Shown here: piece after piece, positions 41,911-46,197 of the stretch
Position numbering within the stretch: position 1 is the first letter of the stretch
Layout: every line of letters starts with the position of its first letter
DNA from: Methanimicrococcus sp. OttesenSCG-928-J09
Lineage (GTDB): Archaea; Halobacteriota; Methanosarcinia; Methanosarcinales; Methanosarcinaceae
DNA: 48,662 nucleotides
Direction: 5' to 3'
NCBI GenBank assembly: GCA_030266245.1
Contig: JAJDHP010000005.1
Coordinates: 1-48,662, forward strand
Made by a program: the position numbers and the translations under genes
Notes under the pieces: generated by a model
Told to the model about the DNA's origin: nothing
Databases searched by the model: none
Seen by the model: the letters and a program-made list of their open reading frames with translations, nothing else

Positions 41911-42941
41911 GTTCTGAAATTGGTTCTTCAGAAATTGGCTCTTCTGATATCGGCTCTTCTGATGTTGGCTCTTCTGAAATTGACTCAATTCTTATCAATG
42001 ATGAGAGCTTAGACGATTCTGAGAGAAATTCCGGCAGAAATACTGACGGAAACGAAGATGGCTTCATCATGAAAAACGAAAATGCAAAATCCTATTTCAT
42101 CGACTCACTCGGTGACAGTTTGGCCGAGAGCGGCATTAATGTTGACAGTCTTGACTTTTCATCTTTTATCGGCAACGAGCCGATTGAAATTCTTGTCGAG
42201 CTTGCTAAAAACGACAAAATTGACCCTTGGAATATTGATATTGTTCAGGTAACGGATACTTTCCTGAATAAAATCGAAGAGCTTCAGCAAATGGATCTGC
42301 GCATTTCCGGCAGAACGCTGCTCTACTCCTGTGTTCTGCTGCGTATGAAATCAACCGGTCTTTTCCGCGAGGAGGAAGAGATTTTAGAAGATTTCTATGA
42401 GGAAGAAGATAATTATGAGGAAGAATTCGATATCAATGAATTCAATATGCCTCTTCTGCCGGTTCGCCGTTCTGCGCGCCGTCCGGTTACTTTGAAAGAA
42501 TTGATTGATGAGCTGAAAAAAGCGGAAAAAGATGTTGTCAAGAGAAGAGAGCATCTGCATGCTGAAAGCAACCGCCGTTACATTGATGTCGAGCTGACAA
42601 CTGAAGATGTGATGAATATCGCGCATGATGAAGCGATATTAAAGAGAACGGGAACGCTTCTTGAACTTTTGAAGCAGTTTTTCAAAAAGCAGGAATTTGT
42701 GACGCTGGACGAGATTTTTGAACTCGACGGCGCCGACAGAATTATGGATTACATTACGCTTTTATTCCTGGCGGCAATGAAAGAAGTCGTTCTTTATCAA
42801 AAAGAAATGTACGGGACACTTTTCATTTATCCGTTCAGTGCCGCTTTTGTAAATGCGATTGGTGAAGATGCCGCAATCAGTGACGAAGCTGTAATCAGTG
42901 ACGAAGCGCCTGAAACGGCAGAAGCGGAATCTGCTGACTAA
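41907..42941 (+). CDS. scpA: Segregation and condensation protein ScpA (kleisin)
   Basis: Encodes 344 residues. The ATG overlaps the smc stop. The kleisin body starts near residue 90 with PIEILVELAKNDKIDPWNID and IVQVTDTFLNKIEELQQMDL; the N-terminal helical domain binds the SMC neck. The C-terminal winged helix (about 245-305) includes FVTLDEIFELDGADRIMDYI. An acidic linker (EEEEILEDFYEEEDNYEEEF) joins them. The first 25 residues are five copies of an SSEIG-type repeat not expected in the family; an internal Met at residue 55 (MKNENAKSYF) would be a more usual start. ScpA bridges the two SMC heads. Confidence 0.92.
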   Translation: MSSEIGSSEIGSSDIGSSDVGSSEIDSILINDESLDDSERNSGRNTDGNEDGFIMKNENAKSYFIDSLGDSLAESGINVDSLDFSSFIGNEPIEILVELAKNDKIDPWNIDIVQVTDTFLNKIEELQQMDLRISGRTLLYSCVLLRMKSTGLFREEEEILEDFYEEEDNYEEEFDINEFNMPLLPVRRSARRPVTLKELIDELKKAEKDVVKRREHLHAESNRRYIDVELTTEDVMNIAHDEAILKRTGTLLELLKQFFKKQEFVTLDEIFELDGADRIMDYITLLFLAAMKEVVLYQKEMYGTLFIYPFSAAFVNAIGEDAAISDEAVISDEAPETAEAESAD

Positions 42942-42978
42942 AAACAATAAAAGAATTCTAAAAACAAAAGAGAATCTG

Positions 42979-44193
42979 ATGAGCAATATGACAGAGGAAA
43001 ACACTGCAAAACAAATTATTGAAGCCGCTTTATTTGCCGCCGGCAGCGCTGTTGCTGTCGAAACTCTAATGAAGATTTCCGGTCTTTCTAAAAAGGAGGT
43101 GACGCGTTTGGCTGCTGAACTTCGGGAAGACTATGCGGCGCGCGGATCAGGCATTGAAATTTCAGATTTATCCGGCCGTTTTGTAATGCAGATTAAGCCT
43201 GAGTTCGCGGAAAAAGTAAAAGATGTCGCGCCGAAAGAATTGACGTCACCGCAATTAAAAACGCTTTCAATTATTGCTTACCACCAACCGATTACAAAAG
43301 CGGAAGTCGTTGAAATGCGCGGCGGTAACGCTTATGAACATGTGAATGAGTTACATGAGCGCGGTTTTATTGAATTGAAGCCGCACGGCCGCACGACAAT
43401 GATGACGACGACTAAATTGTTCGCGGAATATTTCGGCATCGCTTCAAATGATTCGGCGGATGTCAGAAATAAGATGGTTGAAATTTACAGAGCGCAGGGC
43501 GGTCAAAGTGATATATCCCGCTTCGCGTTCCAGAAGAAGCTGGCCGTTACTGAGATGTACGAATCTTTGATGCGTATGTGCGGCATTACGAATTATAAAG
43601 TTGTGAACCCGTACAATCCGGATGAAAATGATTTGAAGATTCTGGAAGAAACGGATATTTTAATTATGGCGAAAGGTTACGCCGACAAGCTCCAAACTTT
43701 GAATCCGCCGTATGGCGGCGCTGTTTTGGAAATGTCTTCTACGACGTTCGGTGATTTGATGGATGACATTCATCTGATTGAAAAAGAACTCGGCGAAGAT
43801 TTCACGCGCTTCGGTAAACATTCAAAGAAAGAAGAAAATTTGAATGATTTGAAGGAGCTTTTGGAAATTTATCGCAATAAAGCGTTGATGGTCAAATCAA
43901 AAGCAAGTCCGGGAACGGAAATGTCGGCAAAAATCCTGGGAGAACTCGGAATCGGTCTTTCAGTTGACGGTATTGTTGTGTCGCCTGATTACGGCACTAC
44001 AAAAGGCGGCAAAAAGGTGAAAAAGGGAGAAGTGACTTTCCCGACGCACAAAAGCCAATCCGGTAATTTGATCAAACGTGTTTGTGAAAAATATGACGCT
44101 GTTATCGGCGGTTTAAGGGAAGTCGATAAAGCCGAAAGAGAAGTCGCCAAAAAAGGGAAGGCTAAAGAAACACCGGAATCTGAAAACGAATAA
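42979..44193 (+). CDS. scpB: ScpB-type SMC complex subunit with long C-terminal extension
   Basis: Encodes about 404 residues from ATG at 42979; the Met three codons later is also possible, and a frame start at 42898 inside scpA is not used. Residues about 5-165 are the tandem winged-helix ScpB domain (IIEAALFAAGSAVAVETLMK, LKTLSIIAYHQPITKAEVVE, RGGNAYEHVNELHERGFIEL). The remaining 240 residues roughly double the usual size and match no domain I recognise (HLIEKELGEDFTRFGKHSKK, SAKILGELGIGLSVDGIVVS); the tail is Lys-rich. ScpB pairs with ScpA on the SMC heads. The gene starts 37 bases after scpA and ends the operon. Confidence 0.88.
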   Translation: MSNMTEENTAKQIIEAALFAAGSAVAVETLMKISGLSKKEVTRLAAELREDYAARGSGIEISDLSGRFVMQIKPEFAEKVKDVAPKELTSPQLKTLSIIAYHQPITKAEVVEMRGGNAYEHVNELHERGFIELKPHGRTTMMTTTKLFAEYFGIASNDSADVRNKMVEIYRAQGGQSDISRFAFQKKLAVTEMYESLMRMCGITNYKVVNPYNPDENDLKILEETDILIMAKGYADKLQTLNPPYGGAVLEMSSTTFGDLMDDIHLIEKELGEDFTRFGKHSKKEENLNDLKELLEIYRNKALMVKSKASPGTEMSAKILGELGIGLSVDGIVVSPDYGTTKGGKKVKKGEVTFPTHKSQSGNLIKRVCEKYDAVIGGLREVDKAEREVAKKGKAKETPESENE

Positions 44194-44694: not shown

Positions 44695-45618
44695 ATGAAA
44701 TTCGAAATAAAAACAATCGGTAGGATGGTTTGTTGTATTATAATTTTCTGTCTTTGCATTACCTTTGCGCCGGACGGAATGAACAGCATCAGCAATGAGA
44801 GATCTGAAGGCGTATTGCCGGATTTTTTATCGTCAACACTTGCGCAGGAAGTAAACAGCGGAAGTACTGCCGGAACAAGCAGCGAAGAAATGTCTGAAAC
44901 AAAATCCTTCTCTGAAAGTGATCCTGGTGGGGAAAAAAATTATGGGGAAAACAACGAAAATAACAAAGAAGAATTCTGTAAAGAGTATGCTAATAATGCA
45001 GCTAGCAGCATAAATAATTCCAATAACAGCACTAACAGAACAAATAATACAGGTAACAGCACAAATAATGCCGGTAACAGCATTAACAACACCAACAATA
45101 CAAATTATCCCAATAACCGCACTGATGTTGAAATCATAAATGGAAATGGCGAAGATATTGAAGTTATTGGAAAAGGATTTTACACACACAATCTTTTCTT
45201 TACGGAAGATGCTCAGCGTTATGTTATTGTTTATCCTGACGACACCTATGTTTCTTTGACACGGAATAAGGAGTCGGAACACAAATCTTATGACGAAATC
45301 TGCGGATTTCTGTAGACGGACAAAACAGATGAAAATATATATGTGCCGGAAACATACGTTTGCATAAATTATGCGGCTGACTTGGTAAATGCAGCAGAGA
45401 AATTAGGGATTTCCTGCGGTTTGCTGCTGCTGACATTTGAAGAAGATATTCCCAGCCATACTTTAAATGTTTTCATGCTGGAAGACGATCAGATTATGTA
45501 TGTTGACACAACAGGTTCTTTAAATAAAGCCGGAGTCGATCGTTACTTCTTTGAGCTGAATGTCGGCGACTTTTACGAAGAGATGGGAAATATTTACAAA
45601 ATGTATGAATTTTGGTAA
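44695..45618 (+). CDS. Secreted transglutaminase-like protein with in-frame TAG (possible pyrrolysine)
   Basis: The frame runs from ATG 44695 to TAA 45616-45618 with a single TAG at 45313-45315, codon 207 of 307 sense codons. GGGGTG 7 bases before 44695 favours it over ATG 44680. The N-terminus has a membrane or signal segment (about 11-25), then an Asn/Ser/Thr-rich repeat linker (NNTGNSTNNAGNSINNTNNT). After the TAG the frame encodes a transglutaminase-like core: Cys in YVCINYAADLVNAAEK, His in IPSHTLNVFMLED, Asp in MYVDTTG. The catalytic residues thus lie beyond the TAG and need readthrough. Pyrrolysine insertion is plausible in a methylamine-using methanogen; a disabled gene is the alternative. 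Confidence 0.65.
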
Positions 45619-45735: not shown

Positions 45736-46023
45736 TGTACCTGCCCATGCAAAACTAATCGGCACGGATACTTGCAGGTTTCCGTTTTCCATATTTACCT
45801 TGCCGATTCCGTTTGCTGCTGCTGCCGTACTGTTTCTGTTACAGCTTGCCACCTTACTGTTTCTGTTACAGTTTGCTACCCTACTGTTTCCGTTACAGTT
45901 TGCTACCTTACTGCTGCCGTTACAGTTTGCTGCCTTACTGCTGCCGTTACAGCTTGCTGCCTTACTGTTGCCGTTACAGCTTGCTGCTGCCTCCGCCCAC
46001 GCACGCGCGAGCTGCACAAATTT
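45736..46023 (-). repeat. Dispersed intergenic element, copy E6, with 27-bp tandem units
   Basis: On the minus strand: head AAATTTGTGCAGCTCGCGCG at 46023; about six tandem 27-bp units built on GTAAGGCAGCAAGCTGTAAC plus GGCAACA; then AACGGAATCGGCAAGGTAAA and the tail TAGTTTTGCATGGGCAGGTA. The unit length keeps one phase open for 122 codons, but other copies break that frame, so it is not called a gene. It lies 118 bases past the transglutaminase-like gene and points toward it. Confidence 0.85.
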
Positions 46024-46197
46024 TATTTTACAAAATAAAAAACCGACAATCAGTTCCAACTCGTATCAGAAAAAGAAAGCCTACACTTCGTTTTATTAAT
46101 AGTCAAAAAAAGTAAAAAATTTAAAGTTTCAATTCCGATTTGAATTGAAAGCTCAAAAAACGTGTATCTTTTATGTATCGTGTTAACGGAGGCTGAA

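Follow-up and report, generated by a model that had tools for sequence, protein, structure and literature searches.

The methylamine methyltransferases MtmB, MtbB and MttB carry pyrrolysine (Pyl) in the active site, and MttB and MtbB require it. Kivenson et al. reportedly described in Science in 2025 an archaeal "Pyl code", in which some archaea read all TAG codons as pyrrolysine. Outside the methyltransferases, Pyl is established for Thg1 and has been proposed for transposases (PMC2933860, PMC8211752), and a 2010 review treats UAG as both a sense and a stop codon in pyl-bearing archaea (PMC2933860). The passages that we found in the Methanimicrococcus literature mention pyrrolysine and do not mention TAG reassignment. 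Here we analyze a 48,662-nucleotide stretch of DNA from Methanimicrococcus sp. OttesenSCG-928-J09 (the window), in which one gene (the TAG gene) is interrupted by an in-frame TAG. We put at about 90% the probability that this gene yields one exported protein in which UAG is decoded as Pyl at residue 207, as part of a sense use of TAG shared by the whole genus.

An in-frame TAG is conserved in three orthologs

Retranslation of the plus-strand frame 44695-45618 recovers what had been claimed for it from the letters alone: its only internal table-11 stop is the TAG at 45313-45315, codon 207. The frame closes with TAA and spans 307 residues.

42898..44193, +, scpB, the upstream neighbor (Pfam PF04079, E 6e-41)
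44695..45618, +, whole gene through the TAG, predicted to encode a 307-residue exported protein of the papain/transglutaminase superfamily (translation, in-frame homologs)
45313..45315, +, candidate pyrrolysine codon, the in-frame TAG at codon 207 (the M. blatticola and Ast373 orthologs match it with TAG; a sense codon in homologs outside the genus)

This TAG is the only one used among 38 ORFs in a crude gene call of the window; 24 ORFs use TAA and 13 use TGA, in line with the earlier note's remark that the other window genes stop with TAA or TGA. The 100-codon extension past the TAG scores 28, a coding-like value. Between the TAG gene and a downstream lyase gene, positions 45772-46038 hold short-period repeats (CTGCCGTTACAG-type units).

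All three known Methanimicrococcus orthologs, those of the window, the isolate M. blatticola DSM 13328 and the MAG Ast373_bin29, share TAG at exactly this codon (CGFL-TAG-TDKTD, CQFL-TAG-DDLTD and CRFL-TAG-SDVTY, respectively). The latter two proteins share 55-58% amino acid identity with that of the window, and the M. blatticola ortholog reads EVCQFL-Pyl-DDLTDQNIYIPNEY around the site, with Pyl standing for TAG. Homologs from other genera and phyla run continuously across the junction and always have a sense residue at this position (K 12, R 8, L 6, E 5, A 4 and others), with 16 residue types in the column and Lys or Arg the commonest. Relatives thus show either TAG or a sense codon here and no other stop, which answers the comparison that the earlier note had proposed. 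The order scpB-TAG gene is common to the window, M. blatticola and Ast373; no copy of the gene was found behind scpB in three other species, and in one genome (G002) the next gene after scpB is the one that in M. blatticola comes after the TAG gene.

Synonymous divergence among the three orthologs is saturated, with dS ranging from 1.4 to beyond estimation (1.9-4.7 after the TAG). Nonsynonymous divergence is similar on the two sides of the codon (dN 0.16-0.31 before and 0.19-0.29 after), and dN/dS is well under 1 on both, indicating strong purifying selection that extends over the part bearing the catalytic triad. Since selection persists past the TAG despite saturated synonymous sites, both parts appear to be translated as one protein. 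These comparisons make a very strong case for translation through the TAG in frame, and the read-through originally proposed for this gene accordingly holds up in three species.

The TAG gene is predicted to encode an exported cysteine enzyme

The protein begins with a hydrophobic segment, continues through a linker rich in Asn, Ser and Thr, and ends in a catalytic domain:

44713..44769, +, hydrophobic stretch near the N-terminus, aa 7-25, probably a signal peptide or else a membrane anchor (19 residues, hydropathy 2.29)
45010..45120, +, Asn/Ser/Thr-rich linker, aa 107-141, with nine N-X-S/T sequons, lacking in M. blatticola and Ast373, whose proteins are shorter
45142..45615, +, catalytic domain, aa 150-307 (AlphaFold2 model, pLDDT 84.8, pTM 0.80)
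45361..45363, +, codon of the predicted catalytic Cys223, invariant in 30 homologs
45457..45459, +, codon of the predicted catalytic His255, invariant in 30 homologs
45505..45507, +, codon of the predicted catalytic Asp271, invariant in 30 homologs

The codons of all three triad residues lie 3' of position 45315, so the Cys-His-Asp triad falls wholly after the TAG, as first described. In the 30-sequence alignment and the AlphaFold2 model, Cys, His and Asp follow one another in the order of the superfamily and sit on a helix and two neighboring strands (helix 74-87, which the Cys opens, strand 106-112 and strand 118-122, in domain numbering). Among solved folds, Foldseek ranks the papain-like protease domain of Marasmius oreades agglutinin (MOA; probability 1.00, E 6.6e-4) as nearest. 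The Cys-His-acid order is common to MOA and other papain/transglutaminase-superfamily enzymes, and the predicted fold may be as well. Unlike MOA, the TAG-gene protein has no lectin part, and the resemblance amounts to a TM-score (TMq) of just 0.45 at 13% identity. Searches of Pfam and NCBIfam matched no curated family apart from a spurious sub-threshold hit to Presenilin, and a sequence search of the PDB yielded no family name; the protein is therefore classified by fold and motif and is assigned to no named family. The earlier description of the gene as transglutaminase-like thus survives at the level of the superfamily, from residue order and predicted fold, and finds no counterpart among Pfam or NCBIfam families. 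We call the product a papain/transglutaminase-superfamily enzyme, possibly a peptidase or a transglutaminase, that is probably exported and active.

Residue 207 is the ninth of a ten-residue helix that precedes the catalytic Cys helix in the model, 16 residues before the Cys itself, and is flanked by the conserved F205 and D209. Its place near the helix end and its variability in homologs make a surface position likely. Of 11 columns as variable as this one, 5 show a single residue across the three orthologs. This comparison gave no statistical proof of selection for Pyl at the site, and the retention of TAG is not sufficient proof on its own.

The window's genome encodes a complete pyrrolysine pathway

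Looking for the pyl genes had been suggested as a check on read-through, and the set is complete: pylT (CTA anticodon), pylS, pylB, pylC and pylD follow one another on a single contig of the window's genome (archaeal assembly, 1.375 Mb, 58% complete). ARAGORN called pylT and an NCBIfam model pylS, while pylB, pylC and pylD were assigned by cluster position and sequence. All six Methanimicrococcus genomes carry pylS, and in M. blatticola, too, pylT adjoins pylS. In the sampled DNA, tRNA-Pyl is the only tRNA with a CTA anticodon. The NIKS, YxCxxxF and GGQ motifs of the single aRF1 are all canonical, and we therefore rejected an altered release factor as the basis of UAG read-through. Folding against shuffled sequences and covariation analysis revealed no conserved RNA structure after the TAG across the three orthologs. 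Only M. blatticola fell below its shuffles (z -3.3, against +0.3 for the window and -0.5 for Ast373), and the covariation term of the consensus fold was positive, that is, unfavorable; a PYLIS-like element is thus unsupported.

TAG behaves as a rare sense codon in the sampled genomes

TAG usage was counted in 849 crudely called ORFs with a resolved downstream stop, drawn from 398 kb of the window's genome (about 29% of it), 415 kb of M. blatticola and 400 kb of another Methanimicrococcus species (G001). TAG ends only 21 of these ORFs, 15 of which run on into coding-like sequence, compared to 35 of the 828 that end in TAA or TGA. The excess holds in the window's genome (6/8, Fisher p 8e-7), in G001 (6/8, p 2e-7) and in M. 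blatticola (3/5, p 0.0014). A pylS-bearing relative with a 4.2-Mb genome (G015) gave 1/3, which is not significant. No clear case of a gene with TAG as its true stop emerged from the sampled stretches. The most ambiguous site for full reassignment is a small M. blatticola gene of unknown function (L055:8346-9245) with two in-frame TAGs, the second of them two codons before TAA. In these samples, TAG behaves as an ordinary rare sense codon across Methanimicrococcus genes, with TAA and TGA as stops. The special recoding event that the earlier note had envisaged thus gives way to a general pattern, as TAG looks like sense in essentially every sampled-genome gene that uses it.

In-frame TAGs occur in MttB and MtbB, at their known canonical Pyl sites, and in several other genes:

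L023:326-1474 (G000:C5) and L122-L127, L142, L158, radical SAM protein, TAG at the same codon across species
L016:3116-3955 (G000:C16) and L236-L238, gene immediately upstream of pylT; in each of the species checked (4/4), TAG precedes TGA by five codons
L025:6408-9431 (G000:C8), M1 aminopeptidase, TAG at aa 659 in the window's genome only, CAG/CAA in five congeners
L048:19252-20001 (M. blatticola), RluD-type pseudouridine synthase, TAG within the HMSHxGHPVAGD motif, where the window's genome has AAA

All Methanimicrococcus genomes (6/6) and both of a sister genus (2/2) have TAG at one shared codon of the radical SAM gene (SLKSA-Pyl-ENGICAGFEIPA), and Lys is the commonest residue of this column elsewhere (10 of 22 other genomes). 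By these comparisons the radical SAM gene is a stronger candidate for a conserved Pyl than the window gene. Homologs of the gene upstream of pylT read on beyond the TAG column; its product resembles terpene-cyclase/prenyltransferase repeats, with no match in a Pfam search. The M1 aminopeptidase TAG was gained recently, via one transition, and a sense codon subject to drift would be expected to arise in this way at Gln and Lys codons. In-frame TAG also occurs in large, repeat-rich surface proteins of the window's genome (L019:8773-11100) and of M. blatticola (L050:15304-17664).

Proposed decoding and alternative explanations

We propose that the UAG of the TAG gene would be decoded by tRNA-Pyl(CUA), charged by PylS with pyrrolysine supplied by PylBCD, so that residue 207, in a surface helix ahead of the active-site Cys, would be Pyl. 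No gene-specific recoding would be involved, TAG being a rare sense codon genome-wide with TAA and TGA as stops, and synthesis of active enzyme would become dependent on the Pyl supply. The case that residue 207 is Pyl is strong but indirect. A pseudogene or a sequencing or assembly error would account for a lone stop in the otherwise open frame of a MAG, but three assemblies made independently, including that of an isolate, agree on the TAG, and selection past it is purifying; we reject this reading as having practically no chance of being correct. Scarcely more credible are two separate genes, the second a 91-residue ORF starting at GTG 45343, the sole in-frame start 3' of the TAG. A search upstream of this GTG found nothing resembling a Shine-Dalgarno sequence, consistent with the original observation that the rightward part lacks a ribosome-binding site of its own; a protein begun there would start within the folded domain and be missing the helix ahead of the Cys, and homologs are unbroken over the junction, so this candidate, too, was rejected. 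Insertion of Gln or Lys by another suppressor tRNA would fit the CAG/CAA or AAA codons that other species have at two TAG sites. It is nevertheless very improbable, given that tRNA-Pyl is the sole tRNA with a CTA anticodon found in the sampled DNA and that MttB and MtbB depend on Pyl.

A leaky stop is the alternative to be taken most seriously, though we consider it unlikely. Translation would mostly end at residue 206, producing a short exported stalk, while a minority of ribosomes would insert Pyl and make some full enzyme, in a ratio perhaps tuned by methylamine or Pyl supply. The canonical aRF1 motifs imply that termination at UAG may compete and give this 206-residue product, and an introduced-amber reporter in Methanosarcina acetivorans was mostly terminated, with 20-30% full length (PMC2933860). 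The short product, however, would lack the entire triad, selection is alike before and after the TAG, TAG is nearly absent as a stop in the sampled ORFs, and the radical SAM protein, M1 peptidase and RluD carry it at places where truncation should disable the enzyme. In another reading, Pyl at 207 would have been kept for a specific function in this enzyme, such as contact with a substrate or cofactor through the imine ring. Its retention in 3/3 orthologs at saturated synonymous distance and its proximity to the catalytic Cys speak for this, but the outgroup residue varies freely, the model places the site beside variable positions, and comparable columns are often just as conserved; we regard it as doubtful. 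In all likelihood Pyl207 is a lysine-like residue that is tolerated on the surface; it is unlikely to be catalytic, and there is only a weak case that Pyl does anything special in this protein. It is similarly improbable that Pyl is functionally required in the exported enzyme or that synthesis is gated by the supply of Pyl, and so of methylamine; if true, this would connect the substrate of the methanogen with its interface at the cell surface or in the gut.

Comparison with known pyrrolysine systems

Standard annotation stops such genes at the TAG, and here the whole catalytic center of the putative exported enzyme is lost; the radical SAM protein of all six species would suffer similar damage. 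TAG sites that match CAG/CAA or AAA/AAG codons of sister species suggest a route by which a stop codon could be captured as a sense codon. A genus-wide sense TAG that includes M. blatticola, a cultured gut methanogen, would allow predictions of the Pyl code to be tested directly by proteomics.

The TAG pattern of Methanimicrococcus fits the reported archaeal Pyl code: complete pyl genes, rare internal TAG and TAA or TGA stops are common to both. That code reportedly places Pyl in many proteins that have nothing to do with the use of methylamines, as the sequences suggest for Methanimicrococcus. MtmB, MtbB and MttB resemble the TAG gene in having an in-frame TAG at a conserved codon that is read as Pyl, as it probably is in the TAG gene; their Pyl lies in the active site, whereas homologs vary at the TAG-gene site, which is probably exposed on the surface. 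Close parallels are Thg1 of Methanosarcina acetivorans and the amber transposases, non-methyltransferase genes with an in-frame TAG in pyl-bearing Methanosarcinaceae, as here, and they render out of date the suggestion that Pyl outside the methyltransferases would be nearly new (PMC2933860, PMC8211752). Pyl is not essential in Thg1, a further likeness to what we propose for the TAG gene (PMC2933860, PMC8211752). The Thg1 amber codon is confined to one species, while the TAG described here is present in all three known orthologs, in a protein predicted to be exported.
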